NCBI GenBank assembly: GCA_902705825.1
Contig: CACSIL010000006.1
Coordinates: 1 to 64,000, forward strand
Length of the DNA stretch: 64,000 nt
Source: Halioglobus japonicus
GTDB lineage: Bacteria; Pseudomonadota; Gammaproteobacteria; Pseudomonadales; Halieaceae
Direction: 5' to 3'
In this document: positions 11,457 through 40,486 of the stretch, one piece after another
Numbering within the stretch: position 1 is the stretch's first letter
Layout: each line of letters opens with the position of its first letter
Notes under the pieces: generated by a model
What the model was told of the DNA's origin: nothing
Databases searched by the model: none
The model's input: the letters and a program-made list of their open reading frames with translations, nothing else
Position numbers and translations under genes: made by a program

Positions 11457-11503
11457 AGGCATCCTCCAACTGCGTTATGCCTGTGTCGGCGCAGCAGCAC
11501 CTG

Positions 11504-13453
11504 TTACGGTGCCGGGTCATACCAGATCGGTGAGGTGTAGGCGCGCTCCTGTATGGCCACTGGCGCACCCTCGGGGATTCCCTCAGAAAATCTGACCGCA
11601 TCGTATGTCGTCCAACGCGGTGTGGGTATTTCGATCACCCTGGCGTAGTAGAACGCTTTCGCAGTGGGATCAAAATCAGGGTCTTCCCATACAGCGATAA
11701 GCTCTCCATCGCCTATTGTGTTCATCCAGGTGGCTGTCCTGACATCAACGGTGTTGCCGACTGCCGGCAAATCGCCCAGAGCATCGGGCTTGCGCGTTGC
11801 GGGATCGCTCCAAACGGCATCGTACACTTTCTCTCGCGCCTGGCCCTCGGCATCCAGCCACCCCTTAACGATTTGAATCCTGTCGAGGTTACCACTCTGT
11901 GGATCTTTCATTGCCGCTACGAGAAAGGTAGGCGCTGTGTTTTCGGGCGCGGCGCCAATATCCCCACCCATCGGCACACCTTTGCTATAACCCAGCGTTG
12001 CGGGTACGAGACTGCGGGCATCCTCTTCCGTGAAATCAAAGCCGCCAAAGAAACGCACTCGAATATGTGGCCCGGTAGTGGCATACGTCTCTTTGCGTTG
12101 CATCGCATCAAATATCTCTGCGCGGGTGTTTTCCCGAGCCCAGACAGCGACGACGCCGGAGGCGGAGGTTTGCCAGTAAAAGCGCTTGATCCCTAGCTCC
12201 GGGTTAAATTTCTCCAGCCCGACGTCCCGGCCCGGCCTGGGCTCTCTATTCGCGTTCTTACCAAAAAAATTGTTCTCAGCTGACGTCGACAGCGCTGTGT
12301 GGGTATCAGTGGAACCGATCATCCCGAACTTGTAGGGATTGATACCTCTGGCCGCATCAAGCTCCAGCCCGCGTTTCAGTGCGGCGCGGGCGTACTCGCC
12401 GGGAAGCATTTCCGGCGTCTTGGCTTCGCTGACATCCAGGTTACCCATATCCCAGGTTTCAAAATCGGCGAATGCATCCTCGGGTGATAGCAGTGGGTGC
12501 GCCTCCCCATCACCTTTGGCCTGAGTAACCTCCACCAGCGGTTCCCAGCGCGCGCGGGAGGCCAGATACGTATCATCGAGGGGATTATCGTCATCGAAGT
12601 TATCCACCAATGGGAACATCCAGCCGTTGGACAGGTTGCCATTGTGGGGAATGGCAAGCATCTCCCCGCCCGTCTCTGCCTCCCAGTTTTCCATCCATTT
12701 CCACAGGTCCCGAGGGTTGGGGCTCCCCAGTGGCGGTGTCGTGGTGTAAGGTTCAACCATTATGGCTTTGTCGGCACCATCACGCATCAACACGACCCTG
12801 TGAAGGTTGTTGCCTTTCACCAGTGACGTCCACTCAAAGCCAATGAGGGCTGTAAATTCGCCCGGTTCGTTGTAATCCTCAGCCGCCTTAACGATGGTTT
12901 TCCAAGTTGACATATACGCCGGGTTGCCGGGTTGATAGTTCAGCGCCTCGTTGATTTCGCCCTGTGCAAACTTTGCGATCATATCGATGGTTGCCTTACG
13001 CGCTGCCTCACCACCCTGAATGAAGGCAGCATTGAGCTCACGGCCGTAGGGGTCGGCCATAATATTCGGCGCGCCGGACAGAATATCCCGAATAACGCCC
13101 ATACCGTCTGTGTGATCGGCAACCGCCAAAAAATCATAGGGCTGGCTAATACGCACCGGCTGTCCCGTATTCGAAACCAGTTGCTCGCCCCGCGCAAATC
13201 GGTAGGCATCACTGGGCATCAGGCGTGTACCACTCCCGCCGGCATCGCCGGAGAGCCCCGTGTGCACATGAACATCACCAAATAGAACCTCTGCCGGATA
13301 ATCGAGATTGACATAGGGCGAATAAGGCTGAGCGCGTGAATTAGCGGCAGGGTCTTTCGCGGCCGCACTGACACCTGTGCTGATAGCGCAAAGACACGTC
13401 GCAATCGCTATAGACTTGCCAACGCGGCATGCGGGAACAATAACTCGCTTCAT
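11504..13453 (-). CDS. DUF3604 protein (PHP-like metallohydrolase), exported, copy 1
   Basis: A 649-residue protein. I choose the second ATG (13451-13453) because GAGGAG lies 6 bases before it and directly abuts the first. A signal peptide ends near residue 30. The DUF3604 domain fills the rest: FGDVHVHTGLSGDAGG with His62 and His64 as likely metal ligands, DAYRFARGEQ, ADHTDGMG, the central IPHNGNLSNGWMF and HPLLSPEDAFADFE, GSTDTHTALSTS, and KETYATTGPHIRVRFFGG. These His/Asp motifs resemble PHP-domain phosphoesterases, but the reaction is unproven. It follows the sulfatase by 41 bases in the same direction, so both are probably one operon controlled by the AraC-linked element upstream of the sulfatase. 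Confidence 0.88.
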   Translation of the reverse strand: MKRVIVPACRVGKSIAIATCLCAISTGVSAAAKDPAANSRAQPYSPYVNLDYPAEVLFGDVHVHTGLSGDAGGSGTRLMPSDAYRFARGEQLVSNTGQPVRISQPYDFLAVADHTDGMGVIRDILSGAPNIMADPYGRELNAAFIQGGEAARKATIDMIAKFAQGEINEALNYQPGNPAYMSTWKTIVKAAEDYNEPGEFTALIGFEWTSLVKGNNLHRVVLMRDGADKAIMVEPYTTTPPLGSPNPRDLWKWMENWEAETGGEMLAIPHNGNLSNGWMFPLVDNFDDDNPLDDTYLASRARWEPLVEVTQAKGDGEAHPLLSPEDAFADFETWDMGNLDVSEAKTPEMLPGEYARAALKRGLELDAARGINPYKFGMIGSTDTHTALSTSAENNFFGKNANREPRPGRDVGLEKFNPELGIKRFYWQTSASGVVAVWARENTRAEIFDAMQRKETYATTGPHIRVRFFGGFDFTEEDARSLVPATLGYSKGVPMGGDIGAAPENTAPTFLVAAMKDPQSGNLDRIQIVKGWLDAEGQAREKVYDAVWSDPATRKPDALGDLPAVGNTVDVRTATWMNTIGDGELIAVWEDPDFDPTAKAFYYARVIEIPTPRWTTYDAVRFSEGIPEGAPVAIQERAYTSPIWYDPAP

Positions 13454-13494
13454 CGCCATCTCCTCAAGGGCATATCGCTTCTGTAAGTGGGTTT

Positions 13495-15024
13495 TTACTT
13501 TCTGTACAACGCTTCAGTGATCTGGTCCACCGTGAATGTTCCCGGACGCTGTCGCGGCGGAAACTGCTGGAACGTCGCGACAAACTGTGTGACGGCCCCC
13601 ATTCCAAGCATACCAACCGAGCCTATTTTCTTGTCCCACCACAAGTTATAACTATTGGAGTCGGTATCTGCTCGCTCAAATGGATCGCGACGCAGGTTAA
13701 ATACCTTGGGAATTCTCAGAGTCACGAAGGGATCGCGCCAAACATCAAACTTGTGTGCGCGTTGTTCAGCAAAGACAAACTTCCAGTCACCTACTCTAGT
13801 GGCCGTCAACAGGCCGTCGTCACTAAAATAGAAAAACTCACGCCGCGGCGACTCAGCCCGCTCGCCGACCAGAAAGGGCAGGAAATTGTAACCATCCAGA
13901 TGCACCTTGAATTCCCTGTCGCCGATTCGCTTGCCCTTTTTCAATTCCTCTTTTATCTCACTATCACCAACAGCAGCCATCAGCGTGGGCACCCAGTCGA
14001 GGTGTGACATGATCTGGTTGCTGATGCCGCCCGGTTTTATATGGCCGGGCCATCGCACCATCGCGGGCACACGGTAACCGCCTTCCCAGTTGGTGTTTTT
14101 CTCACCGCGATATGGCGTGATAGCTGCATCGGGCCACTGATTAAAGTGTGGGCCATTATCTGTGGAATAGAAAACGATGGTGTTATCCGCTATTCCCAGC
14201 TCGTCGAGTTTCGCCAGCAAGGTGCCCACATGGCCGTCGTGCTCAACCATGGCATCGTTGTAGAAGCCCTGCCCACTGGCACCTAACTGCTCCGGCTTAA
14301 CATGGGTGTAATAGTGCATCCGAGTCGAGTTAAACCAGACAAAAAAGGGTTTGCCCTGCTCGTGTGCCTTGTCAATAAATTTCAGTGATGCCGCCAGAAA
14401 CTCCTCATCTACTGTTTCCATACGCTTACGCGTCAGCGGCCCACTGTCCTCAATTTTGCCATCTGCATAACTGTGGATGACGCCGCGTGGACCAAATTTC
14501 TCGCGATAACCGGGAAACTTCGGGTAATCAGGATCTTCCGGCATTTCCTCGGCATTCAGGTGGTACAGGTTTCCAAAGAACTCATCGAACCCATGGTTGG
14601 TCGGCAGGAATTCATCGCGATCGCCCAGATGATTCTTGCCAAACTGGCCGCTGATATAGCCGTGCGGTTTCAACAATTCCGCCAGTGTCGGGTCTTCCGC
14701 CTGTAAGCCCAGGCTAGACCCCGGAATACCGACTTTCGTCAGCCCGGTACGCACCGGATGCTGACCCGTAATGAAGGCCGACCGACCAGCAGTACAACTT
14801 TGCTCGCCGTAATAGTCGGTAAACACCGTGCCCTCGTTGGCGATACGGTCAATGGCCGGGGTCTGATACCCCATTTGTGCCAAACTGTAGCGACTGATGT
14901 TCCAGATACCGATATCGTCGCCCCAGATCACCAGGATATTAGGTTTGTCCGCGGCCTGTGAGCCAGAAGAGAGAAACAAGACACCGATTGTCAGCGCAAG
15001 GCTTTGCAACAGATTTTTCATCAT
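13495..15024 (-). CDS. Periplasmic arylsulfatase, Cys-type
   Basis: A 509-residue enzyme. I start at the ATG at 15024, 9 bases after GGAG; an earlier ATG at 15039 contains that site. A signal peptide ends at SQA-ADKP. The sulfatase fold is shown by NILVIWGDDIG (metal-binding Asp pair), EQSCTAGRS with Cys77 in the C-x-A-x-R motif that becomes formylglycine, GKNHLGDRDEF, and STDNGPHFNQW. It removes sulfate esters from an unidentified organic sulfate in the periplasm. Maturation needs a formylglycine-generating enzyme, which is not in this window. The gene leads a two-gene operon with DUF3604 copy 1. Confidence 0.92.
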   Translation of the reverse strand: MMKNLLQSLALTIGVLFLSSGSQAADKPNILVIWGDDIGIWNISRYSLAQMGYQTPAIDRIANEGTVFTDYYGEQSCTAGRSAFITGQHPVRTGLTKVGIPGSSLGLQAEDPTLAELLKPHGYISGQFGKNHLGDRDEFLPTNHGFDEFFGNLYHLNAEEMPEDPDYPKFPGYREKFGPRGVIHSYADGKIEDSGPLTRKRMETVDEEFLAASLKFIDKAHEQGKPFFVWFNSTRMHYYTHVKPEQLGASGQGFYNDAMVEHDGHVGTLLAKLDELGIADNTIVFYSTDNGPHFNQWPDAAITPYRGEKNTNWEGGYRVPAMVRWPGHIKPGGISNQIMSHLDWVPTLMAAVGDSEIKEELKKGKRIGDREFKVHLDGYNFLPFLVGERAESPRREFFYFSDDGLLTATRVGDWKFVFAEQRAHKFDVWRDPFVTLRIPKVFNLRRDPFERADTDSNSYNLWWDKKIGSVGMLGMGAVTQFVATFQQFPPRQRPGTFTVDQITEALYRK

Positions 15025-15144
15025 GGGGGTAATCTCCACATTGCTTGAATAATTATTAGCGGCCTATCAACCACGTACGAGATGCCGTATTTACCTGCGT
15101 CTTTTTGCGCTATGCCAGCGATTATTCGAATACAGAATGCCCGG

Positions 15145-15189
15145 GAAATCTAACGTATCAAATCGCCAGAGTATTGATCTTTGGGGACA
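15145..15189 (-). promoter_or_regulatory. Promoter with AraC-linked element upstream of the sulfatase
   Basis: On the minus strand the element TGTCCCCAAAGATCAATA (15172-15189) is followed, 17 bases later, by GTTAGATTTC (15145-15154). The same element and the same spacing to a G-W-T-A-R-A-T-T-T-C block recur in both promoters of the 18.4-18.9 kb divergent region. I read it as the activator site and promoter core for the sulfatase-DUF3604 operon, 120-165 bases before its start codon. This is inference from repetition. Confidence 0.6.
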
Positions 15190-15225
15190 AAAATACCCCC
15201 CCCTTGAGCAAACCAATGCAGTCAA

Positions 15226-16233
15226 TCAATCTGAATGCGCGTTGCGAAACTCTCGCGGGGGCTGCCCAAACCAGCGCCGACAATTTCGAGAGAGCACCGC
15301 CTGTTCAGCGTAGCCGAGAATAGCCGCCACCTGCGCCAGCGGAGCACTCGTATTGCACAGGTAGTACTCCACCTTCTCTCGGCAAACCCCGTCTCGAATC
15401 TGATCGAAAGTGACGCCCTCTCGCGCCAACCTACGGTGTAGCGTTCGCGGGTGCAGCCCCATGGCCTGTGCAATATCCTTGCGATTGCAGCTGTCGGTAC
15501 CCAGCGTTCGTCGGACCGCTGTTGCGACACGTTCAGCCACACGGCCGTCGGGCGCGGGCTGCTGTACATTCAGGTAGTCTATTGCCGCCTGGTACAGCTG
15601 TGCGCTGCGCTCAAACATCTGGATGTCCAGTGTTTTGGAATCGATAAAAATCGCATTATCTGATTTCGAAAACGCCACCGGCGCACCAAAATATTGTTCG
15701 TAAACAGCCGGTGGGCAAAGGGGCTCATGAGGTAGTTCAACTTTCAGCAAGGTATAATCATCGCCGGCCGCCATATAGAGGACCTGGTGAATCAAGCCTA
15801 TCGCCAAATCCTCTACCTGCCGCATGCCCGCGTGCGTCATATTGTTTAGTTGTATCCGTATTGCGAGGCGGGTCTGGTTCCCCTGCTTGTCGAAATCCAG
15901 CCGTAACGCAGAGCTCTGAATAAAAATAAAATCCGCTGCACAGCGTATGGCACGCTCCACAGTAGGCGCGTTCTGTATCGCCACGGCCAGCGGGCCAAGT
16001 ATTCCAACATCCTGAACCGCCGCCAGGCGCAACCCCAGATCTGCTACCTTCAACTGGGTTGCGCTGTGCTCCATCAAGTGGATTATTTGTCGATAGGGAA
16101 CCAGAGCATCTTCGAAGCGAGTGACCTGTAAATCGATCCCGCAGTCTTGGCTCAATTGCTGGGGATCCCCGCCCAACGACTGTATCAGGCTGCTGTAACC
16201 ACTGAGGCCAGACACTCTCACCAAGGCTGTCAT
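15226..16233 (-). CDS. AraC-family transcriptional regulator with arabinose-binding-type N-terminal domain
   Basis: A 335-residue regulator. Residues about 20-205 form the N-terminal ligand domain seen in OruR/ArgR-like AraC regulators (GYSSLIQSLGGDPQQLSQDCGI, VADLGLRLAAVQDVGILGPLAVAIQNAPTV). The C-terminus has the two helix-turn-helix units: RKDIAQAMGLHPRTLHRRLAREG and PLAQVAAILGYAEQAVLSRNCRRWFGQPPREFR. It sits between the sulfatase-DUF3604 operon and DUF3604 copy 2. A reversed copy of the repeated element TGTCCCCAAACATCAAGG lies 45-62 bases before its start, consistent with autoregulation. It is the best candidate for binding the repeated element in this island; the inducer is unknown. Confidence 0.9.
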   Translation of the reverse strand: MTALVRVSGLSGYSSLIQSLGGDPQQLSQDCGIDLQVTRFEDALVPYRQIIHLMEHSATQLKVADLGLRLAAVQDVGILGPLAVAIQNAPTVERAIRCAADFIFIQSSALRLDFDKQGNQTRLAIRIQLNNMTHAGMRQVEDLAIGLIHQVLYMAAGDDYTLLKVELPHEPLCPPAVYEQYFGAPVAFSKSDNAIFIDSKTLDIQMFERSAQLYQAAIDYLNVQQPAPDGRVAERVATAVRRTLGTDSCNRKDIAQAMGLHPRTLHRRLAREGVTFDQIRDGVCREKVEYYLCNTSAPLAQVAAILGYAEQAVLSRNCRRWFGQPPREFRNAHSD

Positions 16234-16277
16234 GCGGAATGCCTCACCGTTTGATCAATTTTCAAGTATCAAATAGC

Positions 16278-16295
16278 TGTCCCCAAACATCAAGG
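16278..16295 (+). promoter_or_regulatory. AraC-linked element upstream of the AraC gene, reversed
   Basis: TGTCCCCAAACATCAAGG matches the island element TGTCCYYAAAGATCAATA at 15 of 18 positions. It lies 45-62 bases before the AraC start codon and points away from it, the opposite of the other copies, which fits a repressing autoregulatory site. The weaker match at the end makes this the least certain of the four. Confidence 0.5.
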
Positions 16296-16381
16296 GGCTG
16301 GCCAATTCCGTGCACACCACGCGAGTTTCGATGCGCCTTGGCAGGGCTGCATCTTCGGCAAATGGATAGGCACTAACCGAA

Positions 16382-18382
16382 CTAGGATCGATTTTTCACC
16401 CAGATCGGCGAACTCCAGGCCCGTTCCTGTATGGTCTTTTTCAAATCCGGGCGGGGCTCTACCCCCTCTCTGATAGCGTCCCATGTTGACCAGCGACAAG
16501 TGGGGTTTTCCATTACCCGCGCATAGTAAAAGGCTTCCACCTCGGGATCGTGATCCGGGTCTTTCCACATCGTCAGCATCTGTGAATCTCCGACGCCCTC
16601 TGTAATCGAGCAATCGGCCAAATTGACCTTCGCCCCATTGTCGGGGCAACGATGAGTATCGGGGTCAGGTGCAAGGCCATCGGAGCAGGCTACGTCATAT
16701 ATTTTCTCTACCGCTTCGCCATCTTTGACATAGCCCTTGATTACCTGCATCCGCTGCAGCGGCGTACCGCGTGGATCCCCAGATGCCAATACAATAAAAC
16801 CGGGGGTGGCTCCATGGGTTGACAGCTCACCACCCATTGGTACGCCCAGTGCATAGGCCCTGGAGATCATCTGTCCATCTTCCAAGATGCTGTCGTCGAA
16901 TGTCGTCCCAGCGAAAAAGCGCACTTTTATTCGCGGGCCGGTTGTGGCGAAGGTCTCCTTGCGACGAAACGCATCATAGATCGCCTCGCGGGTGTTCTCC
17001 TCAGCCCACACCCCAGCGACCCCCGAGGCGCTCCATGTTTCGAAGCCGCTGCCGTTCAGATAATCGCGACCATCGATCTCCTTAAGATTACCGGGTGACA
17101 TCACGCGCAGAATGGCCCCGTACAACAGTGATACCGGCACCGAACCACGGCCGTCAGGTTTACCGTCAAAAATGCCGGCCTTGGAAAAGTAGGTGGATTC
17201 ATCATCGGTGTTCGCCGCAACGTGGCTATCACTTCCTGCTACAAAACCGAATTGAAATGGGTTGGTGACACCCCGCGCATTTATCGCAAGGCCATTCTTA
17301 AGTGCCTGACGCACATAGCTGCCATCTGGCTGACTGGGTAAAGTGGTGCCCACACGCAAATCATATATCTCAAAATCAGCCCACTCATCGTTGGGGGAAA
17401 GCAAGGGATGCGTCTCCGATGTCCCCTTGACCTGGGTCATCTCTACCAGCGGTTCATTGCGCATACGCTGCTCTGCATAGGCGTCATCCAGGGGATTTCC
17501 TGCCCAGTCTTCTAACTTGAACATCTGTCCGTTGGAAGCATTCGAGTTATGCGGGATGGCCAGGCTTTCTATGCCTTGTGCCCGCATTATGTCCATCCAA
17601 TCCCACAGACCCTCCGGGTTCTGGGAATTGAACCTGGAAAACGGCACTGCCGGTAGTTTATCGCTATCTCGAAAAATAACATTGCGATGCAGGTTGCCGC
17701 GGTCATCGGAAGTGGAGGTATACTCGTATGCGACAAAGGTGGTGAATTTCCCGGGGGCATTGAACTGCTCAGCGGCATCGATAGTATCCAGCCATGCGCG
17801 GCGGGTAATGTCGGTTGCCATGGTCTCGTCAATAGTGCCGTCCTGTATTCCCGCCAACGTGTCCCGTATGAATTTTCCGAACCCTCCAACTCGCAGCGGG
17901 AAACTGAAAATGCCCATATTGTCCGGCGCATTCAAGTTATGCATGGGTTCTGCAACCGGGTATTTGGAAAATTCAGTGCTGGTGTCCGCCGCCTCCTTGA
18001 CCAACCCCAGAAACATAGCGTGATCCGTCACTGCGTAGAAATCCAGCGGCTCGCGCAACTGTATCTCAAAACCACTGGGATGCACGATGGGCTCGCCTCT
18101 GGCGTAACGGTATGCATCGTAGGGAGTAGCGGTGGTGCCGAAGGAATACGCGTCAAAGGAGTACTCTGTATGTACATGCAAGTCGCCAAAATAGGCATTG
18201 CGATCCGGGTTGGGTGCGGGGCTGGAAAGGTCCAGCAAATCCATTACTGGCTGCAATTGAGTGTTGGCTTTTTTCTCGTCTGCGCTACTCCAGCTATTGG
18301 CCTGCTCCGACAGGGAACTGTCCCCGCTGCAGCCGACTAGAAGCGTGGTAAGCATACTTGCAATGGTAGTAATACGGAGCAT
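16382..18382 (-). CDS. DUF3604 lipoprotein (PHP-like metallohydrolase), copy 2
   Basis: A 666-residue protein with AGAGGG before the ATG. The signal peptide ends in the lipobox LVGC (Cys18), so unlike copy 1 it is membrane-anchored. The domain shows FGDLHVHTEYSFDAYSFG with His69 and His71 as likely metal ligands, DAYRYARGEPI, TDHAMFLG, IPHNSNASNGQMF, HPLLSPNDEWADFE, GSDSHVAANTDDE and KETFATTGPRIKVRFFAG. The motifs line up one for one with copy 1, so they are paralogues with the same likely chemistry. It is transcribed divergently from the TonB-dependent receptor, and its promoter carries the AraC-linked element. Confidence 0.88.
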   Translation of the reverse strand: MLRITTIASMLTTLLVGCSGDSSLSEQANSWSSADEKKANTQLQPVMDLLDLSSPAPNPDRNAYFGDLHVHTEYSFDAYSFGTTATPYDAYRYARGEPIVHPSGFEIQLREPLDFYAVTDHAMFLGLVKEAADTSTEFSKYPVAEPMHNLNAPDNMGIFSFPLRVGGFGKFIRDTLAGIQDGTIDETMATDITRRAWLDTIDAAEQFNAPGKFTTFVAYEYTSTSDDRGNLHRNVIFRDSDKLPAVPFSRFNSQNPEGLWDWMDIMRAQGIESLAIPHNSNASNGQMFKLEDWAGNPLDDAYAEQRMRNEPLVEMTQVKGTSETHPLLSPNDEWADFEIYDLRVGTTLPSQPDGSYVRQALKNGLAINARGVTNPFQFGFVAGSDSHVAANTDDESTYFSKAGIFDGKPDGRGSVPVSLLYGAILRVMSPGNLKEIDGRDYLNGSGFETWSASGVAGVWAEENTREAIYDAFRRKETFATTGPRIKVRFFAGTTFDDSILEDGQMISRAYALGVPMGGELSTHGATPGFIVLASGDPRGTPLQRMQVIKGYVKDGEAVEKIYDVACSDGLAPDPDTHRCPDNGAKVNLADCSITEGVGDSQMLTMWKDPDHDPEVEAFYYARVMENPTCRWSTWDAIREGVEPRPDLKKTIQERAWSSPIWVKNRS

Positions 18383-18519
18383 AGAACCCTCTTATCGTAT
18401 TGAGTTGTGGTGCGATGAATACGCGTGGTAACTGCCCAACGCCGTCATGGCGAATGCTGCAGATTATCCGCCACTGCCGGATCACCTCTACAGGCAGGTC
18501 ACGAGCACTTAATCGAGGG

Positions 18520-18568
18520 GAAATTTATCTCACCCCGGGATACAAATATTGATCTTTGAGGACAGTTT
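18520..18568 (-). promoter_or_regulatory. Left arm of the 49-base inverted repeat: promoter for DUF3604 copy 2
   Basis: Read on the minus strand, the arm carries TGTCCTCAAAGATCAATA (18547-18564), then 17 bases, then GATAAATTTC (18520-18529). The arm matches the right arm at about 41 of 49 bases with no gap. Its orientation drives transcription towards DUF3604 copy 2, whose start codon is about 140 bases away. Confidence 0.65.
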
Positions 18569-18696
18569 CGCTTACTCACTACCTCGGGTCGGTGTTCGAA
18601 TACCGCATACCCAGCACCAAAGATAAGCCACTGTTGAAATAGACCGGCGCAGCCCTTTCGCCTGTTTTGCGGCGGTGGTTGCCTGCTGAACGGCAA

Positions 18697-18745
18697 AAAC
18701 TGTCCTTAAAGATCAATATTTGTTGACGACGGTGCGATAAATTTC
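18697..18745 (+). promoter_or_regulatory. Right arm of the 49-base inverted repeat: promoter for the TonB receptor operon
   Basis: On the plus strand the arm carries TGTCCTTAAAGATCAATA (18701-18718), then 17 bases, then GATAAATTTC (18736-18745). A 128-base spacer separates it from the left arm. The inner 26 bases of the arms differ at only one position. It faces the TonB-dependent receptor gene, whose start codon is 128 bases on. Conserved spacing to the AT-rich block suggests activator site plus promoter core. Confidence 0.65.
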
Positions 18746-18872
18746 TGTCTCACTATTGTCAGGTCATGCGTTGTATACAGCGCTCACTCTGTCCCCGAGG
18801 CAGATACACAGTAGTCGCACAACTGAGAGATTGAAAAGTACGATTTCCATAACAACACAAAGGAAACGGATT

Positions 18873-21278
18873 ATGAAAACAACAAAATCCCAGATACCAT
18901 TTTTTCAGACTACTGCCCTGGCTCTGGCTCTGGCACCTATCGTCTCAACTGCGCAACCGATGCTTGAAGAGGTGATGGTAACGGCGCAGAAACGCGTAGA
19001 GAGTCTCCAGGATGTGCCCATCTCCGTGTCGGCCATGAGCGGCGAAAAGGTGATGGACAACGGAATTACCAACCTGGAAGAACTTTCGCTCTATATCCCC
19101 AACGTCAATATCAATCAGGGACAGGCACAGCCCAACCTCTTTATCCGCGGCGTAGGCTCAGGTACCAACGCCGGTTTCGAACAATCGGTGGGGATGTACA
19201 TAGATGGCGTGTACTCGGGGCGCGGTGCGCTGGCGGCGGTACCGCTGACAATGGACCTGCAACGCGTAGAAGTTCTGAAGGGGCCGCAGGGCATCCTGTT
19301 CGGCAAGAACACAATCGGTGGCGCTATCAACATCACTACCAACAAGCCTACGTTTGACAATGAGGGGATGGTAGATGCGCTGTACTCCGATGACGCGAAT
19401 GAGCAAATCTACACCGTCGTGCTCAATGGAGAGATATCTGAAAAGGTTGCCGGACGACTCGCTGTGCGCTACGACGGCATGGATGGCTGGTGGGACAACC
19501 AGTACTTACAACAACAGGGCCCCAACAGTGACAACTGGTACGGCCGCGGGCAGCTCCTTTTTGATATCAACGACAACCTGGAAGTACTGGCAAAGTATGA
19601 GTACGGTGACTTTCAAAGCAACGACCTTCCCTCCGTTGTCTACCAATCGGATCAACCGTTAAACTTCCGGGGCGAAGATGTCTTTCCCGTTGTTGATGAT
19701 CAGGACAAAGCGGCCGCTGACCTCGCGGACAACAAGGATGTGCGCACCGATGTAGGTGCCATTACCGCCAATTGGGACATAGACTTCGCCACGTTAACAT
19801 CCATCTCAGCCTATTCCTCCTATGATCTCAAACGTCAGTTGAACGCCGACCGAAGTGCGACGGCTGCGATTCACAGAACCCAGCACGAGAAGTTTGATCA
19901 GTGGAGCCAGGAGCTACGCCTGGTCTCTCCCGGCGGTGAGACGCTGGACTGGGTAGCGGGCGTGTACTATGAACATTCCAATCTGGATATTTCCCGCACC
20001 AGCCCGGCAATCGATTTTGCACTGCAGGGCCCACTAGCCAGCGCTGCACTGATCACACTGCCGGAGGCCGGTATCATACCGACAGAATTCGATCAGGATA
20101 CAGACACTTACGCGGCCTTCGCCCAGTTAACATACAGCCTCACCGAGACGGTTAGAGTCACGGGCGGCCTGCGTTACAACTATGAGAAAAAAACACTCGA
20201 TAAAAGCGTCACCAGCCCGGTTGGCGCAAGGGGCACTTCACTGGGCGCACCGGATCTCATCGTCCGCGCAAACCCGGCGTCCGGTGCGATCATCAGTGAT
20301 TTGCGCAGTCACAACTGGCAGGGCCTTAGCCAGGATGCAGACAAATGGACCTGGTCGGCCAATACCCAGTGGGATGCAACCGAAAACGCTATGCTCTACG
20401 TTAGTGTGAGCACAGGTTTTAAAAGTGGCGGATACGATGAAGCCTATTCCAGCGAAGGTGATGTTGTCAGGTTGTCGGATGACATTCTTACCGGTGAACC
20501 CAACGGCCAAACCATCCCCGGTACAGACTCAAGTGTGCTCGAGTATGATCCGGAAACTGTGACCGCCTATGAGATCGGTGCAAAAATGACATTGCTCGAT
20601 GGCGCGGCGGAGTTGAATGCGGCGATCTTCCGCTCCGATTACGACGACCTGCAGACCAGTTCACTGGAAGGAGATGTGTTCGTGGTGGGCAATGCTGGCG
20701 AGGCCCGCATTCAGGGTGTGGAGTTAGACGGTCGCTGGGCACTCACCGAAAATCTAACGCTCAGTGGTGCGCTTGCCTATCTGGATGCACACTACGAAAA
20801 CTTCACCGGAGCGACCTGTACCATCCCGCAAGTCACGGACCCGGCAAACAACCCGGGTTGCCTGAACAGTGGCGGCGACAACATCGTGAACGCCAATGAT
20901 CCCGGCGGCCAGGACCTCGGCGGCGACGACCTTCTGTTCGCGCCAAAATGGAGCAGCAATCTCAGCCTTCAGTATGTCTACCCCTTAGCGAACGGTCTCC
21001 AGATCATGACCAGCGTCGACATGAACTACAGCGATGACTACTACTCCGCGTTGGATCTTGATCCAAACACACAACATGACAGCTATACCCGTTGGAATGC
21101 ACGCATTGCTCTGTCGGGTAATGACGATCAATGGAGTGTTGCACTGCTGGGCAAGAACCTCAGCGATGAGACCACACATATCTGGAAGAATGACGTGCCA
21201 GTCACAAACAGCAATTCCTATTTTGCCATACCGGAACGGCCGCGTTCAGTGGCGGTTCAGGTTCGCTATCGATTCTAG
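18873..21278 (+). CDS. TonB-dependent outer-membrane receptor, island 1
   Basis: An 801-residue receptor started at ATG 18873, which has AGGAA 7 bases before it and begins MKTTKSQ with a signal peptide ending at STAQP. The plug domain follows: EEVMVTAQKRVESLQDVPISVSAM, LYIPNVNINQG, LFIRGVGSGTNAGFEQSVGMY, VEVLKGPQGILFGKNTIGGAINI. The rest is the barrel, ending in the aromatic residue of VQVRYRF. It takes up a large or scarce ligand across the outer membrane using TonB energy. The family subtype (no TonB-siderophore signature) is common for carbohydrate, terpenoid or aromatic substrates. It leads a run of five same-direction genes. Confidence 0.93.
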   Translation: MKTTKSQIPFFQTTALALALAPIVSTAQPMLEEVMVTAQKRVESLQDVPISVSAMSGEKVMDNGITNLEELSLYIPNVNINQGQAQPNLFIRGVGSGTNAGFEQSVGMYIDGVYSGRGALAAVPLTMDLQRVEVLKGPQGILFGKNTIGGAINITTNKPTFDNEGMVDALYSDDANEQIYTVVLNGEISEKVAGRLAVRYDGMDGWWDNQYLQQQGPNSDNWYGRGQLLFDINDNLEVLAKYEYGDFQSNDLPSVVYQSDQPLNFRGEDVFPVVDDQDKAAADLADNKDVRTDVGAITANWDIDFATLTSISAYSSYDLKRQLNADRSATAAIHRTQHEKFDQWSQELRLVSPGGETLDWVAGVYYEHSNLDISRTSPAIDFALQGPLASAALITLPEAGIIPTEFDQDTDTYAAFAQLTYSLTETVRVTGGLRYNYEKKTLDKSVTSPVGARGTSLGAPDLIVRANPASGAIISDLRSHNWQGLSQDADKWTWSANTQWDATENAMLYVSVSTGFKSGGYDEAYSSEGDVVRLSDDILTGEPNGQTIPGTDSSVLEYDPETVTAYEIGAKMTLLDGAAELNAAIFRSDYDDLQTSSLEGDVFVVGNAGEARIQGVELDGRWALTENLTLSGALAYLDAHYENFTGATCTIPQVTDPANNPGCLNSGGDNIVNANDPGGQDLGGDDLLFAPKWSSNLSLQYVYPLANGLQIMTSVDMNYSDDYYSALDLDPNTQHDSYTRWNARIALSGNDDQWSVALLGKNLSDETTHIWKNDVPVTNSNSYFAIPERPRSVAVQVRYRF

Positions 21279-21358
21279 ATTTTTGCCTGTATCACTGGCC
21301 TTACACAATTAATTTTTGATGATTGAATATTACCCAGCACCATTTACAGGAGAGAACC

Positions 21359-21835
21359 ATGCACAGTGAATCCATGAGCATTATTCGTGATGCCAACCAG
21401 GAATGGTTGCGCATCCCATTACCGGGAGCAGAAGGCGTCAGTATCAAGGTACTCAAAGCGGACGAGGCGATGGACCGCGTTGTGGTAAAAATTCGTTTTG
21501 ACCCCGGTAGTCGTATGCCGAGACACGTTCACGACTGTCGCGCAGTTGCCTACACGATAAGTGGCAGCTGGGCTTATGATGAAGGCAGCTTCGTCACCGG
21601 TGAATGCGCGTGGGAGGAAGAGGGAAATGACCACACTCCCTGGAGCGACGAGGGTGCGGAACTATTCATCGTGTTCGATGGAAAGAACGGGCACTACCTT
21701 GATAACATCTTGCCCGATGGCACGATTATCAAACTCGGCATGCCGATACTCAAGGCATTTGAAGGTGTCACACAAGAGGAAGCCGATAGCATTGATATCG
21801 AACCACTGATCGAGATCATACCCGCGGCGGCCTGA
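21359..21835 (+). CDS. Cupin protein resembling ChrR/dihydroxyacetophenone dioxygenase type
   Basis: A 158-residue cytoplasmic protein begun at ATG 21359, 5 bases after GGAGAG. The cupin core shows SRMPRHVHDCRAVAYTISGSW, with the paired histidines of motif 1, then a late NDHTPW histidine. This arrangement is like the small cupins annotated as 2,4'-dihydroxyacetophenone dioxygenase family or anti-ECF ChrR cupins, which bind Fe or Zn. Gap to the receptor gene is 80 bases, so it is probably in the same operon. A C-C bond-cleaving dioxygenase or an isomerase is possible; the reaction is not determined. Confidence 0.8.
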   Translation: MHSESMSIIRDANQEWLRIPLPGAEGVSIKVLKADEAMDRVVVKIRFDPGSRMPRHVHDCRAVAYTISGSWAYDEGSFVTGECAWEEEGNDHTPWSDEGAELFIVFDGKNGHYLDNILPDGTIIKLGMPILKAFEGVTQEEADSIDIEPLIEIIPAAA

Positions 21836-21879
21836 CCAAGCCTCCCTTTACCTGACTGCAACTGTATCGAGGAGTACTT

Positions 21880-22728
21880 ATGTCAGCGCGGATTCAACCA
21901 ACCACAGTCTTTGTCACAGGCGGCATGAGTGGCATCGGCAAGGCTCTGGCAACCTCGTATATTCACCGCGGTGCGCACGTTGCGATCTTTGACCTGGCAG
22001 TCAATGATGCGGTGTTGGATGAGTTATCCAACGAAAGACTACATGCGGGACAGACGGTAGTCGCATATCAGGCGAGCGTCACCGATTTTGGTGCACTTGG
22101 GGAAGCTGTCACTAAGGCTGTTGCAACAATAGGCGCGCCACAACTTGCGCTCAATTGTGCGGGTATACAGCGGGCGCAGCCTTTCGATAGTTTGTCGGCC
22201 GAGCACTTTGAACAGGTGGTGCAGGTCAACTTGATCGGATCACGTAACTTTGCCGCAGCAGTGCTACCAACCATGGAGCCTGGTTCACGTTTGGCCCTGG
22301 TGTCTTCCATGGCGGGATTCGTCGCCAACTACTCCTATGCAGCCTACAGTGCCTCAAAGTTTGGCGTGATTGGCCTGGGCCGTGTGTTGCGGTTGGAGTA
22401 CAAGCCGCGAGGCATCGCTGTCTCACTGGTATGCCCTCCGGAGGTCGACACACCGATGGTGGTTGATGAGATGAAGAATATGCATCCAGCATCACGCCGG
22501 CTGAAGGAGTTTGGCGGCTCACTATCACTGCCAGCAGCCATCACGATGATTCTTGCCGGGCTAGATGCAGGTCGTGACGTGATCATTCCGGGTAGCAAAG
22601 CGAAGATGGCGTATTTTTGCAGCCGCTATCTACCGGACTTTGTTATGAACTTCATCGCAGACAGGATTGTGCTCTCTGTTCTTCGCAAAATGAAGCGCGA
22701 TAAGCCGACGCAGGTAGAATCGCAATGA
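21880..22728 (+). CDS. Short-chain dehydrogenase/reductase, island 1, first
   Basis: A 282-residue NAD(P)-dependent oxidoreductase with GGAG six bases before the ATG. It has the nucleotide motif TGGMSGIGKAL (about residues 11-21), NCAGIQ, the catalytic Ser in LVSSMAGF and the Tyr/Lys pair in YSASKFG. After the core, CPPEVDTPMVVDEMK and a hydrophobic C-terminal segment (PDFVMNFIADRIVLSVL) resemble 3-ketodihydrosphingosine-reductase-type SDRs, which sit on membranes. Its stop overlaps the next gene by 4 bases, giving translational coupling. It probably oxidises or reduces a hydrophobic alcohol or ketone of the island's substrate. Confidence 0.88.
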   Translation: MSARIQPTTVFVTGGMSGIGKALATSYIHRGAHVAIFDLAVNDAVLDELSNERLHAGQTVVAYQASVTDFGALGEAVTKAVATIGAPQLALNCAGIQRAQPFDSLSAEHFEQVVQVNLIGSRNFAAAVLPTMEPGSRLALVSSMAGFVANYSYAAYSASKFGVIGLGRVLRLEYKPRGIAVSLVCPPEVDTPMVVDEMKNMHPASRRLKEFGGSLSLPAAITMILAGLDAGRDVIIPGSKAKMAYFCSRYLPDFVMNFIADRIVLSVLRKMKRDKPTQVESQ

Positions 22729-23558
22729 AAAAACAACGCTGTGTTTACATTACCGGCGGCTCTAGCGGTATCGGCCATAGTCTGGCAAAGCAGTATGCAT
22801 ACGCTGGTGACAACGTTGTTCTAATCGCTCGCGATCAGGCGAAGCTGGATGCTGCCGTGCGTGACTGTAAAGCCTGCGCAAACAATGCGCTCCAGGGTAT
22901 TGCCGGTGTATCGATTGATGTATCTGACATAGACAACCTGCCGACACGCGTCACCGCTGTCATCGAGGAGCACGGTGAACCCGATATACTAATTTTGTGT
23001 GCGGGTATCGCCGGAAATAAAACCTTCCTGCAAATGAGTTCGAGTGAATTCGATACGCTGATAGCCGTCAACTTCACGGCGAGCCGTGAAATGGCGCGTT
23101 GCATTTTGCCCGCAATGCTGAAAAAGCGCCGCGGTAAAATTGTCTTTATGTCTTCCATGAGCGGCCTGATGGGCGTGTACGGGTATAGCGGCTACTGTGC
23201 CTCAAAGTACGCCATTACCGGGTTTGCACAGGCCTTGCAGCAGGAGTTATACGACACCGGTGTCAATGCAATTATTGTTTGCCCGACTGAAGTCGCAACT
23301 CCTATGATCGCCGCCGAAACGGACACAGTTCTGCCACAAACCCGGTTGCTGAAAGATCTGGCTGGCACGCTTCCACCCGATAGGGCGGCTGGGATCATCA
23401 TCAAAGGCATCGATAAAAACAGGGACATTGTACTCACCGGTTTCGTCCCCAGGTTGTTCGACTTCTCCCATCGGGTTTTCCCCGGATTATTTCGAACAAT
23501 CACCCGGTTAATCATTGGCTACGCCTCACGCAAACCTCAGGACATCAAACGTGTCTGA
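22725..23558 (+). CDS. Short-chain dehydrogenase/reductase, island 1, second
   Basis: A 277-residue NAD(P)-dependent oxidoreductase. Motifs: TGGSSGIGHSL (residues 10-20), LCAGIAGN, FMSSMSGLMG with the catalytic Ser, and YSGYCASKYA with Tyr and Lys. Like its neighbour it has a CPTEVATPMIAAE loop and a hydrophobic C-terminus (LFDFSHRVFPGLFRTITRL), so the two are of the same ketosphinganine-reductase-like subtype though well diverged. ATGA overlap with the gene before and an 8-base overlap with the gene after show a tightly coupled operon. Two such enzymes side by side suggest sequential or opposite redox steps. Confidence 0.88.
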   Translation: MKKQRCVYITGGSSGIGHSLAKQYAYAGDNVVLIARDQAKLDAAVRDCKACANNALQGIAGVSIDVSDIDNLPTRVTAVIEEHGEPDILILCAGIAGNKTFLQMSSSEFDTLIAVNFTASREMARCILPAMLKKRRGKIVFMSSMSGLMGVYGYSGYCASKYAITGFAQALQQELYDTGVNAIIVCPTEVATPMIAAETDTVLPQTRLLKDLAGTLPPDRAAGIIIKGIDKNRDIVLTGFVPRLFDFSHRVFPGLFRTITRLIIGYASRKPQDIKRV

Positions 23559-24942
23559 TAAACATATCGCCCAGGTCGCGCTCTGTGCGCTCAATGCCGA
23601 ACAACTGAGGCAGTGGTACGAAAGTGCATTTGGCCTGGTAAAAGCCGGGAAAATATTCACTACACCACCAATGAACACGGACAGGATTCAGGGCATAGCG
23701 CCCAATCCAACGGAAACCGTTTCCTGGCTTGTCGATCAGCAGGACTATTTCCAACTGGAGTTTTTCCAGTTCTATCGGCCAAAATCCCAACGCAAACCCA
23801 ACGACTGGCGCCCGTGTGATATCGGCTACAACATGGTGGGAATATATGTGGCTGACTTCGACAAGGCCGTGCACCGGATTGGCGCTGTATGCGACAGGCC
23901 TTTGCCTGCGATATCCGGTGCAGTCGGCGACCGGCGACTGTGCCTGCAGGACCCCGAGGGCAACTGGGTGGAGGTCATGGAGCGCGACCCCATCACACAA
24001 ATACCGGGAACCGATCCCGGTGTCGTTCGTCCAGAACTCCCCTCAGCCGTTCGCTTTATGCGCGCATCTGTTCCCGACCTCGATAAAACCCGCAACGCTT
24101 TCGTGAACGCGATGGGGCTCACTGTGGTTGACGATTTCCATTTACATAGCCCGGAACATGAGGCTCTCTGGGGGCTGGAGGGCGCGGTGGCAAAAACAGC
24201 GCTGTTGCGCAGCCGCAATTTTCTGGTGGAGTTGGTTGAATACCAGAGCCACCAGCCCAGAACAAGACCACACGGCTATCAAATATGCGACCAGGGTTTT
24301 ATGAATATCGCTCTAGGCTATCGCAAAACTGCCGAATTTGATCGCGCATTCCAACAGGCGACGAGCAATGGTATGAGGCCAAATGGCAAACCCGTCGATG
24401 TCGGTATTTTCCGTGTCATGTACGTTAACGACCCGCAGGGATTCAGCGTAGAAATGTTAAACGCAAGGCGATCGCTGTGGTCACTATCAGGATTTAACCC
24501 TGGCGGACCCTATGTCGAGAACGAGCTGGCGATCAACGCTTCCGCCAGCGAGGTATGGAGGAAACTCAGTGATCACTCAGCACTGGGAAACTGGGGGCTG
24601 TTTAAAGGAAAGGTACTCCAACCGGGAAACGAGTCCGAGAATGGCCTTGGCTGCATACGAGAACTATCAACCTTTGGCGTGCGCATCACCGAGGAGATAG
24701 TCCGGTGGACAGAAGGCAGTCACTACGCTTATAAACTGCGTACAGGCGCGCCTTTCAAATGGCATCAGGGTGATGTTTTTGTGCGTGAGGTCAACGGGGT
24801 GACAACCGTCCGCTGGGTCATTCGGTTTCAATCCCGTATTCCATTCACCGGTAAACTGTGCGCATTTTGCCTGCGAATCATTTTCAAACATACTTTAAGA
24901 AATTTCAAAACCGAGCTGGAAACCGGGCGATCACACGCCTAA
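23551..24942 (+). CDS. VOC-VOC-SRPBCC fusion protein
   Basis: A 463-residue protein started at GTG 23551, where AGGA lies 8 bases upstream; the frame reaches a TTG at 23515 inside the previous gene. It has three parts: a first glyoxalase/VOC domain to about residue 140 (QLRQWYESAFGLVKAGKIF, closing in DPEGNWVEVMERDP); a second at about 150-320 (RNAFVNAMGLTVVDD, FMNIALGYRKTAEF, closing in DPQGFSVEML); and a C-terminal START/SRPBCC (polyketide-cyclase-like) domain from about 330 (ASASEVWRKLSDHSALGNWG). VOC domains use a metal for dioxygenase, isomerase or epimerase chemistry, SRPBCC domains bind hydrophobic ligands. I know no characterised enzyme with this order. Confidence 0.82.
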   Translation: MSDKHIAQVALCALNAEQLRQWYESAFGLVKAGKIFTTPPMNTDRIQGIAPNPTETVSWLVDQQDYFQLEFFQFYRPKSQRKPNDWRPCDIGYNMVGIYVADFDKAVHRIGAVCDRPLPAISGAVGDRRLCLQDPEGNWVEVMERDPITQIPGTDPGVVRPELPSAVRFMRASVPDLDKTRNAFVNAMGLTVVDDFHLHSPEHEALWGLEGAVAKTALLRSRNFLVELVEYQSHQPRTRPHGYQICDQGFMNIALGYRKTAEFDRAFQQATSNGMRPNGKPVDVGIFRVMYVNDPQGFSVEMLNARRSLWSLSGFNPGGPYVENELAINASASEVWRKLSDHSALGNWGLFKGKVLQPGNESENGLGCIRELSTFGVRITEEIVRWTEGSHYAYKLRTGAPFKWHQGDVFVREVNGVTTVRWVIRFQSRIPFTGKLCAFCLRIIFKHTLRNFKTELETGRSHA

Positions 24943-25082
24943 GTCAGATGGGTATCGGCGCGAGATAGTCTATTCCGCGCGCTGATGATCGAGCAGATAA
25001 AGTATTCAATGCGCTTACGGTAAAAATCGCTTACGCTCTTAATTACGCAATAACCGATTCGACAACCCTACAACGACAACAG

Positions 25083-26102
25083 ATGGAGAAAGCAGTGCGC
25101 GCGATAAAATTGACCAACCCCGGTGGGCTCGACAACCTGAAATTGGCCGAGATTGAAGCGGTGGAGCCGCAATGCGGCGAGATCCGTATTCGCAATCATG
25201 CCAGCTCGCTCAATTTTCACGACTATGTCATCGCCCTTGGCCTGATAGCCACCGACGATGGCCGTATTCCGATGTCAGACGGCGCCGGTGTTGTAGAGGC
25301 CGTAGGCGCAGGGGTTACCGAGTTTCAGGTGGGCGATAAAGTGATGTCCTGTTTTTTCCCGCACTGGGCCGATGGCCGGGCCGACAGCCTGGCGAAAGTT
25401 GGCGGCGTTCCGGGCGATAATGTCGATGGTTTCGCCGCAGAGACGGTGACCATGTCCGCCTCGGCGTTTACCCACATGCCGGCTGACTATTCATTCGAGC
25501 AGGCTGCCACTCTCCCGTGTGCCGCACTGACCGCATGGCGCGCGCTGATGGTAGAGGCGAAGGTCAAGCCCGGCGATACCGTGCTGGTACAGGGCAGCGG
25601 TGGAGTATCGGTCTTTGCGCTGCAGTTCGCCAAGGCGGCGGGCTGCCATGTTATCGCCACCTCCTCCTCGGATGCCAAGCTGCAACGCCTGAAGGAACTG
25701 GGAGCGGACCAGCTCATCAATTATCGCGAGGTTGAAAACTGGGGTGACAAGGTACTGGAGATCACTGCCGGCGGCGGCGCGAATGTCATTGTCGAAGTGG
25801 GCGGTTCCGGCACGCTGCCACAATCTGTACGGGCGGTAGCTATGGGCGGCCATATCTCCATGATTGGCGTACTTACCGGGTTTCAGGGAGAGGTTCCAAC
25901 GGCTGAGCTATTCCAGAAAAATGCGGCGATCAGCGGCATCACGGTGGGCTCTCGTGCAAACCAGATCGACATGGTAAAAGCGATCAATACCAATGGAATA
26001 CAACCGGTGATAGACCGTAGTTTTGATCTGGAGAACCTCGCGGACGCATTTCGGTTGCAAGAGTCGCAACAGCACTTTGGCAAAATCTGCCTGAACTTCT
26101 AG
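25083..26102 (+). CDS. Medium-chain (zinc-type/quinone-reductase-like) NAD(P)-dependent alcohol dehydrogenase
   Basis: A 339-residue MDR-family enzyme. The N-terminal GroES-like part has IRNHASSLNFHDYVIALG and DGAGVVEAVGAGVTEFQVGDKV. The Rossmann part has VQGSGGVSVFALQFAKAAGCHVIATSSSDAKLQRLKELGAD. There is no four-Cys structural zinc loop, which is closer to the quinone oxidoreductase side of the family. It lies 140 bases after the VOC fusion in the same direction and may be the last island gene or be separately transcribed. The substrate is unknown. Confidence 0.88.
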   Translation: MEKAVRAIKLTNPGGLDNLKLAEIEAVEPQCGEIRIRNHASSLNFHDYVIALGLIATDDGRIPMSDGAGVVEAVGAGVTEFQVGDKVMSCFFPHWADGRADSLAKVGGVPGDNVDGFAAETVTMSASAFTHMPADYSFEQAATLPCAALTAWRALMVEAKVKPGDTVLVQGSGGVSVFALQFAKAAGCHVIATSSSDAKLQRLKELGADQLINYREVENWGDKVLEITAGGGANVIVEVGGSGTLPQSVRAVAMGGHISMIGVLTGFQGEVPTAELFQKNAAISGITVGSRANQIDMVKAINTNGIQPVIDRSFDLENLADAFRLQESQQHFGKICLNF

Positions 26103-26526
26103 CGCTGAGTGTGCCGTGGTCGCCTGCGGGCGGCGCACGGCATATACGTGCCCGGCTATGGATGTGATGGATTCGCAGAATCACCACTGGAATCTGAATG
26201 AACCCTTTAGAGAGAGTCCGGGTTCATCAAATTTTCGCAAAAACTCTGTTCTGAGCGGAAAATCTTGATTCTATCCAGAATGCAAATATTTATTAAATAC
26301 AGCAACTTAGGCCAATATAAACAGAGCCAGCAGCTCGCCTCCTCTTGACATTCAGACACCGGATGGTATTGTCTGCGCCCCGCTCAAAATGTGCATTAAT
26401 ACCGCTTTAGTTGGTAGCCGTCCGAGAAGCTCAGCCTTCCGGTGCAGCACTGCCCTGAGCGTTCGTTTATTGTCGGGCGATATACGCAGGTTTGTTTGAT
26501 ATCGCTCCACCAAATGAGTTGAAAGC
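26103..26526. other. Intergenic region before gltB
   Basis: This 424-base stretch begins with an imperfect hairpin (arms TGCCGTG at 26112-26118 and CACGGCA at 26136-26142) just after the dehydrogenase stop, possibly a weak terminator although no T-run follows. The rest presumably holds the gltB promoter; I see no recognisable operator or riboswitch. Confidence 0.4.
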
Positions 26527-34331: not shown

Positions 34332-34432
34332 ACTGCTTACCTCTATCGCCATTGATTATGCCCGCGGGTCACTAACTCCCCGCCTTGTACATCACTCCTG
34401 CCGCACTCGCAGCAAGCGCCCGCCACCCTCAC

Positions 34433-35380: not shown

Positions 35381-35456
35381 AATGCTTTCCTCGTCATAAG
35401 GTTTAAATTTCAGGTTGGTCCGAATGGTGTTTACCAAGACAACAATGTGACATCGA

Positions 35457-35569: not shown

Positions 35570-35600
35570 GTCTCGAGGCTCCCCTACCTGCCACTGCGGG

Positions 35601-36638: not shown

Positions 36639-36698
36639 TCCAGATACTCCATCGTTTATATCAGCGGGCAAACCCACCTGTCTCATCAAAGCACATAT

Positions 36699-36716: not shown

Positions 36717-36780
36717 ATTGTTAGCATTCGAGGCAGTTTGAATAGCCAAAACCAACCATAATATCGATACAGGTGGCAGT

Positions 36781-40476: not shown

Positions 40477-40486
40477 TAAGCAAACT

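Follow-up and report, generated by a model that had tools for sequence, protein, structure and literature searches.

The nine-gene cluster and its borders

The window analyzed here is a 64,000-nucleotide stretch of Halioglobus japonicus DNA (contig C6 of a 5.05-Mb assembly; the genome is 93% complete), and this report concerns a gene cluster that it carries at positions 11504-24942. Nine genes there form one unit. On the left arm, reading outward from a divergent promoter on the minus strand, are the genes for DUF3604b, an AraC-family regulator, a sulfatase, and DUF3604a; on the right arm, on the plus strand, are those for a TonB-dependent receptor (TBDR), a cupin, SDR1, SDR2, and a VOC-VOC-SRPBCC fusion. 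The features are listed below, with domains called by Pfam scans and with signal peptides and the lipobox judged by eye from translations.

11504..13459, minus strand: DUF3604a, signal peptide (by eye), predicted PHP-fold metal-dependent hydrolase with a C-terminal beta-sandwich
13495..15039, minus strand: exported type I sulfatase (PF00884, 172.9 bits; CTAGR formylglycine-type motif)
15226..16233, minus strand: AraC-family regulator (PF12625 and HTH_18)
16382..18382, minus strand: DUF3604b, predicted lipoprotein (PF12228, 767 bits; LVGC lipobox by eye)
18873..21278, plus strand: TBDR (PF00593, PF07715); listed open reading frame (ORF) from 18756, likely ATG at 18873
21323..21835, plus strand: ChrR-type cupin (PF12973), likely ATG at 21359
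21880..22728, plus strand: SDR1 (PF00106)
22725..23558, plus strand: SDR2 (PF00106)
23551..24942, plus strand: VOC-VOC-SRPBCC fusion, glyoxalase-I-like fold plus TcmN/START-like domain
25083..26102: MDR (Pfam domain), outside the cluster, with a 140-nt gap to the VOC gene

Every domain named in an earlier note on this DNA is found by Pfam at its position, and both of the gene overlaps described there are present, one of 4 bases between SDR1 and SDR2 (22725-22728) and one of 8 bases between SDR2 and the VOC gene (23551-23558, given a GTG start at 23551 for the VOC gene). The nine parts on the note's gene list are placed correctly, but the list omits the AraC regulator that lies inside the cluster and counts the MDR gene as a member, and the right edge was misplaced. 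Besides the gap that separates it from the VOC gene, the MDR gene has no operator match before it and shows backbone synteny. We rejected its membership because homologues of E 1e-80 or better are present in 76 of the 140 genomes of the family (Halieaceae) that were used for co-occurrence counts, which marks it as chromosomal backbone; none is present in the cluster-owning congeners G116 and G123 (here and below, G-numbers are genomes and L-numbers are loci). Congener G121 lacks a VOC match and has the gene order TPR1 (60%), TPR2 (64%), a 285-amino-acid ORF, MDR (89%), gltB (93%), and gltD (96%). The window has matching flanks; relative to G121, the nine genes are therefore an insertion, apparently between the two TPR genes and the MDR-gltBD backbone. 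Its G+C content is 53.8%, compared with 56-58% in the flanks.

Type I (S1) sulfatases carry a formylglycine motif, C-x-A/P-x-R. The cluster sulfatase belongs to this type by both PF00884 and its CTAGR motif, and all 20 of the relatives' loci that were checked have CTAGR as well. Scans for sigma-70 promoters and terminators gave no sites above those in shuffled sequence, and neither an Rfam scan (10500-26600) nor a tRNA scan gave any match.

A shared operator and its candidate regulator

An operator with a consensus of about TTGATATTTGACGACA is present in four copies in the window, before the TBDR gene, the DUF3604b gene, the AraC gene, and the sulfatase-DUF3604a pair, which is one copy for each transcription-unit start (with units as read here). 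The position weight matrix (PWM) scores of the two sites that were not used for training are included.

18542-18568, plus strand: left arm of an inverted pair, DUF3604b side, 27 bp
18697-18723, minus strand: right arm of the inverted pair, TBDR side, 27 bp
15173..15189, plus strand: site before sulfatase-DUF3604a, 134 nt to the start; PWM 21.7 bits, nontraining site
16278..16294, minus strand: site 45 nt upstream of araC; PWM 19.9 bits, nontraining site

The shared promoter element proposed in the earlier note is real, in that the arms in the gap between the DUF3604b and TBDR genes are inverted 27-bp copies that are alike at 26 of 27 positions; the copy number, however, is four and not two. 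A 23-bp pattern of the inverted-pair element has 2 matches in the window and 0 in 100 shuffles, and a 21-bp pattern found no extra copy in the 5.05-Mb assembly at up to 3 mismatches. A separate inverted pair is present in the gap between the TBDR and DUF3604a genes of congener G123 (19 of 23 matches, compared with 16 in the best of 15 shuffles), and its core resembles that of the window operator. In the same test, none of five other gaps rose above its shuffles.

A 17-column matrix built from 6 training sites was scanned over 75 loci (1.32 Mb) and the window with a main cut-off of 17 bits. The 16 matches of at least 17 bits are confined to cluster loci (4 in the window and 12 in relatives, with the 6 training sites among them), and the ten nontraining matches are the two window sites before the sulfatase and araC genes and eight sites in relatives. 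At this cut-off, there were 0 matches in reversed sequence and 2, 0, and 1 in three shuffles. At 20 bits, 12 real matches compare with 0 in reversed sequence and in each shuffle, while at 13 bits, 49 real matches compare with 25 in reversed sequence and with 23, 25, and 18 in three single-base shuffles.

The sites are placed in a regular way relative to aligned gene starts. A same-strand site lies 30-56 nt upstream of the AraC gene in 7 of 7 cluster loci, a count that leaves out eight loci with AraC homologues of another kind (22-29%; L039, L043, L072, L083, L085, L089, L092, and L093). Among those of the left-out loci that were scanned with the matrix, none has a 17-bit site. Two of them have look-alikes of 13-15 bits (CTTGATATWTTACGCAA; L083:10644 and L093:5908) close to AraC and TBDR genes whose kind is related but distinct, which may perhaps represent a sister regulon. 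The structural genes (SDR1, TBDR, VOC, DUF1302, sulfatase, DUF3604, and cupin) have a site on the opposite strand, mostly 82-223 nt upstream; the cupin-gene site scores 16.4 bits. The exceptions in spacing are the L036 site, which overlaps the first aligned TBDR codons, and the L076 site, which is 302 nt from DUF3604.

As an exact IUPAC pattern, the operator has 15 matches over 11 of the 15 genomes that have a VOC match (see below), and 12 of the 15 lie inside clusters. Since the pattern was drawn from these same clusters, this is a measure of its specificity and not an independent discovery. The three matches outside clusters (G033:C136 within an ORF, G026:C20 intergenic, and G000:C51 at an ORF start) have no cluster homologues near them. 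Allowing up to one mismatch gives 104 matches in 11 genomes, compared with 39 for the reversed pattern, which indicates that the one-mismatch sites are mostly noise; among six that were inspected, one (G035, L123) lies between SDR and DUF3604 genes and may be there by chance. Based on an AraC-family gene accompanied by repeated operators, which are predicted binding sites, at the promoters that it would control, the cluster appears to be an AraC regulon, and the site upstream of araC suggests that the regulator also controls its own gene.

Recurrence of the gene set in relatives

The VOC gene is rare. At E 1e-20, it is found in 15 of the 140 family genomes, 11 of which have a close match and 4 of which have only a paralogue-level one (down to 29% identity). 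A search of 390 genomes of the order with the VOC alignment as the query gave 4 genomes at a cut-off of E 1e-60. Around the 18 other VOC loci from the family search, neighbors of the same families recur in varied orders: SDR genes at 13 loci (8 at ≥45%), DUF3604 at 9, a close TBDR at 4, a close sulfatase at 4, and a cupin at 3. In two Pseudohalioglobus species, P. sediminis and P. lutimaris, the order is SDR1-VOC-DUF3604-sulfatase-DUF3604-TBDR, all in one direction and with an adjoining AraC gene. TBDR homologues of 59-76% are present in L031, L032, L036, L041, and L070, and L075 has a 46% fragment.

The same genes co-occur at the genome level (Fisher tests, without tree correction). SDR1 (E 1e-58) is present in 11 of the 140 genomes, and 10 of these have a VOC match (P = 5.6e-11), a close one in 8. 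The corresponding numbers for the cupin (E 1e-30) are 5 of 6 genomes (P = 4e-5), 4 of them with a close VOC gene; for the TBDR, 7 of 17 (P = 3-4e-4), 6 with a close VOC gene; and for the sulfatase (≥77%), 8 of 22 (P = 3-4e-4), 7 with a close VOC gene. Cluster parts are split over different contigs in G044, G045, and G053; in G045, the VOC gene, SDR1, and the TBDR plus sulfatase are on three separate contigs. The linkage of uptake and catabolism is supported by the common operator, by shuffled but recurring clusters in other Halieaceae, and by co-occurrence across contigs. The earlier note's claim of a linked system holds to that extent, but the refuting condition that it set, conservation of the genes apart from each other, applies to the MDR gene and, in part, to the sulfatase and receptor genes.

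Predicted enzymes, pathway, and substrate

DUF3604a and DUF3604b both contain the motifs H-x-H, D-H, N-L-H-R, P-H-N, and D-x-H, which confirms the matching metal motifs noted earlier, and the signal peptide of the one and the LVGC lipobox of the other agree with the earlier view that one is exported and one is a lipoprotein. H64, H66, D115, H116, H220, H272, D385, and H387 are invariant in 9 of 9 sequences, and we take the motifs to lie at the metal sites of the PHP superfamily. The window's own genome has ten DUF3604 copies, of which eight contain every one of the five motif patterns, one has no P-H-N, and one is unmatched. No DUF3604 sequence match was found in the PDB at E 1. The structure model, which is of modest confidence (pLDDT 69), predicts a PHP metallo-hydrolase fold (a distorted TIM barrel) that is nearest to the PHP metallo-phosphoesterases (PDB 3e38, 2anu/TM0559, and 7rty PsfC); compared with these, DUF3604 is exported or lipid anchored and has an extra C-terminal beta-sandwich. 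The note had called the DUF3604 reactions unknown; the model narrows them to those of a predicted PHP-fold metallo-hydrolase. In the papers searched, we found no described function for DUF3604; one of them, on Chlamydia mutants, contains the term.

PHP proteins are often phosphoesterases, as the names of their structures also indicate, and DUF3604 proteins are found without the partners seen here in two rhizobial plasmid records that were inspected. Both points fit a nutrient-scavenging role, in which the sulfatase and the PHP hydrolases would free sulfate or phosphate and the cytoplasmic genes would be chance neighbors. We consider this very unlikely, since the common operators and the gene order in the two Pseudohalioglobus species tie these genes to the cytoplasmic ones, and since sulfate is abundant in seawater.

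The VOC fusion contains the paired beta-alpha-beta-beta-beta modules of the glyoxalase I/VOC superfamily, and its expected ligand positions are Gln8, Glu70, Asn252, and Glu301 in 14 of 14 sequences. One invariant histidine, H199, is off the ligand strands. The iron site of extradiol dioxygenases is a 2-His-1-carboxylate, and the metal ligands of glyoxalase I are Gln/His, Glu, His, and Glu. The earlier note had suggested ring cleavage by the fusion, and a related explanation of the cluster is that its substrate is a sulfated or conjugated aromatic (phenolic or flavonoid) with the VOC protein or the cupin as a ring-cleaving dioxygenase. With no 2-His-1-carboxylate set at the ligand positions in any of the 14 sequences, and with glyoxalase I scoring as high or higher, this explanation is decidedly unlikely, and the lack of a conserved histidine at the beta1/beta5 positions, as judged from sequence and strand positions, disfavors an extradiol dioxygenase identity for the fusion. 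The ligand set is not that of glyoxalase I either, since Asn replaces His, and the fusion scores 22.7 bits against NCBIfam glyox_I, for which the cut-off is 120. The VOC half resembles fused-type glyoxalase I (maize, PDB 6bnx/5d7z), from which the fusion differs in the Asn, in the added SRPBCC domain, and in its setting in a catabolic regulon.

The thiomarinol plasmid pTML1 of Pseudoalteromonas (L110) carries, beside a P450 gene, a 24% VOC homologue that keeps Gln, Glu, Asn, and Glu. We infer that this is TmlP, the counterpart of the MupP-type dehydratase. MupP is described (PMC8159325) as a dehydratase that acts after C6 oxidation in mupirocin biosynthesis. The MupP/TmlP step is biosynthetic and lacks SRPBCC, unlike the VOC fusion, and the comparison was made with the pTML1 sequence. 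The fusion is a test case for whether glyoxalase-fold dehydratases act after oxidation in catabolism as they do in antibiotic biosynthesis.

Other VOC relatives differ in context. Short VOC2 homologues without SRPBCC are found in L106 and L058/L059 (Streptomyces) and in L110; the one in L106 adjoins nonribosomal peptide synthetase, acyl-CoA dehydrogenase, and LLM flavoprotein genes. A parallel module in L030, L039, L044, and L045 consists of an alpha/beta hydrolase, a second VOC protein, a 33-35% VOC-VOC-SRPBCC paralogue, and an SDR, in part with a zinc-type MDR and an enoyl-CoA hydratase; DUF3604 is present in L030 and L044. The Rhodococcus ruber plasmid pmega_1 locus (L107) contains VOC, VOC, SDR, VOC2 (32%), hydrolases, SDRs, and a cupin, and may be an actinobacterial version of an oxidize-and-VOC module. 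It shares SDRs and a cupin with the window cluster, but its SDRs are mycofactocin coupled, and no sulfatase or DUF3604 is among the genes listed in its (incomplete) table.

Taken together, we judge it somewhat likelier than not that the cluster is a Halieaceae regulon under AraC control that serves the TonB-dependent uptake and the catabolism of a sulfated hydrophobic small molecule, with an elimination or isomerization carried out by the VOC protein. The molecule would enter via the TonB receptor and lose its sulfate to the formylglycine sulfatase in the periplasm, where both DUF3604 proteins, as PHP-fold hydrolases (a soluble and a lipid-anchored one), would cleave a further conjugate of ester type. 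SDR1 and SDR2 would oxidize the freed hydroxyls to ketones in the cytoplasm, and the VOC-VOC-SRPBCC protein would bind the ketone at a single glyoxalase-type metal site (Gln8, Glu70, Asn252, and Glu301) and perform an elimination or isomerization next to the carbonyl. The START-like domain would hold the hydrophobic substrate or product, and the cupin may serve an accessory step.

Several points weigh against this reading. The gene set, its insertion, the operator, the conservation, and the predicted folds are results of computation, and the transport, deconjugation, oxidation-elimination, and substrate class are proposed from them. The sites in L029 and L035 (17.3-18.5 bits) fall within the range of the shuffles (up to 18.8), and the window AraC protein is only 25-29% identical to the cluster regulators of six relatives, which are 45-87% identical among themselves. 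The pairing of a divergent AraC with a nearly identical operator suggests that the operator was kept while the regulator changed, by divergence or, possibly, by replacement. Five of the 18 VOC loci have no nearby SDR gene (L029, L033, L034, L037, and L042, two of which are short contigs). Close homologues occur without a VOC gene in 14 of 22 genomes for the sulfatase and in 10 of 17 for the TBDR, which indicates that these two parts also serve other systems. DUF3604 matches occur in 79 rhizobial plasmid records, and in the two inspected the neighbors are of other kinds, so the DUF3604 reaction need not involve sulfated substrates. With Asn at the position where His is usual, metal binding by the VOC fusion is uncertain, and the parallel with MupP runs through a gene that is presumed to be TmlP. 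Finally, the assemblies are fragmented, with inter-contig distances that are not known, and the Fisher tests ignore phylogeny.

For the substrate of the proposed regulon, the likeliest class is that of the sulfated alicyclic lipids (a sterol, a terpenoid, or something similar) and not a polysaccharide; a sterol or terpenoid is possible. The START-like domain of the VOC fusion appears to favor a hydrophobic substrate, and the relatives' loci provide further signs of one. Four of them (L029, L032, L047, and L055) have a DUF1302/DUF1329 pair close to the VOC gene or the cupin; L032 also has Phenol_MetA_deg, and L072, where sulfatase and DUF3604 genes occur but no VOC gene does, has an alkyl sulfatase. 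DUF1302/DUF1329 pairs also occur in the monoterpene Ame system of Castellaniella (PMC6394551). Compared with that DUF1302-DUF1329-RND cassette, the pairs here are in four relatives' loci and not in the window cluster. L072 (P. lutimaris, G026:C27) has a second close sulfatase (80%) together with DUF3604, SdsA-type alkyl sulfatase, TBDR, and AraC genes. L055, from a Desulfuromonadales metagenome-assembled genome with four sulfatases and DUF1302/1329/BNR/MMPL genes, may be a binning error and is given little weight.

Loci with a TBDR and a sulfatase are often read as polysaccharide utilization loci, and this pair in the window fits such a reading. In PMC10100682, Halieaceae sulfatases are read as potential for the degradation of sulfated polysaccharides. 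Nevertheless, no glycoside hydrolase, polysaccharide lyase, or SusD was seen in the Pfam-scanned set (96 distinct ORFs of the window and its neighbors, which is a part of all neighbor ORFs), and the neighbors that are present are DUF1302/DUF1329, SDR, VOC, and alkyl sulfatase genes. Since a polysaccharide utilization locus pairs a glycoside hydrolase or lyase with the TBDR, a locus of this kind for a sulfated glycan is highly improbable here, and a polysaccharide substrate is unlikely.

A steroid sulfate, whose desulfation, 3-hydroxyl oxidation, and isomerization would feed the 9,10-seco steroid pathway, is a conceivable but doubtful substrate. In G123, a gene for a cholesterol-oxidase-class GMC protein (L036:11726-13300) lies 51 nt behind DUF3604a on the same strand (measured from the longest-ORF start). 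All 12 of its PDB matches at E ≤1e-5 are named cholesterol oxidase, and in the HPLGG and GVNP stretches its His and Asn are conserved. However, this linkage is a single case: the 9 inspected of the 11 other GMC loci are without close cluster genes (with only a 28% TBDR in L098 and enoyl-CoA-hydratase-type matches), and the copy in the window's own genome sits among transporter, peptidase, and aminotransferase genes. We therefore rejected cholesterol oxidase as a general cluster member. Of the 140 family genomes, 12 have a GMC protein of this class, and 11 of the 12 belong to the genus of the window. Proteins of the 3beta-HSD/Epimerase type are present in L047 and L028, but the best PDB matches of the L047 protein are sugar epimerases and dehydratases, which leaves a steroid-specific reading of it unsupported. 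KshA_C proteins occur in 95 of the 140 genomes, with 5 in the window's own genome, whereas the top-scoring KshA class (>215 bits) occurs in 25 genomes, including 6 of the 15 with a VOC match (P = 0.029), and is absent from the window's own genome (93% complete); we rejected the steroid pathway as a genome-level correlate because of this weak association and absence. The Pfam matches of the cluster include no KshA ring-cleavage gene (KshA_C domains are elsewhere in the genome, and HsaC was not searched for), and the sulfatase scores higher with arylsulfatase A (172 bits) than with steryl-sulfatase (134 bits). On the other side, published work reports growth of a sponge Halieaceae isolate on cholesterol (PMC5790920) and production of sterol sulfates by diatoms (PMC6356472). 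A complete sterol-sulfate regulon of uptake, desulfation, DUF3604 deconjugation, and an oxidize-and-eliminate sequence, with the START-fused VOC protein as a dehydratase or ketosteroid isomerase, is unlikely. If it were true, the regulon would consume self-inhibiting signals of bloom-forming diatoms.

The regulon newly delimited here is ordinary in kind (TonB-dependent uptake plus catabolism) and unusual in composition. Among the papers listed in searches for the gene set, or on the use of sterol or steroid sulfates together with TonB or a sulfatase, none describes this system by its title or the start of its abstract. DUF3604, with its ten copies in this genome, gains from the regulon its partners, a predicted fold, and a context for its substrate; the operator is a simple handle for finding the inducer. 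Halieaceae are described in PMC10100682 as a bloom-responsive bacterial family, and a sulfated sterol or terpenoid as the substrate would link this family to organosulfate lipids.

A second catabolic-looking cluster lies at 32613-47283 of the window, ~7.7 kb beyond the first. It contains genes for an amidohydrolase, two NMO-type flavoproteins, a large GST, a TBDR, an MFS transporter, an AMP-binding ligase, and an SDR, as well as the following.

40536-42203, minus strand: second-cluster sulfatase, in the catabolic-looking cluster

Homologues of its GST (72%) and NMO (85%) adjoin the cupin/AraC/DUF3604 locus L076 of G044, which suggests that the two window clusters may be linked in function.

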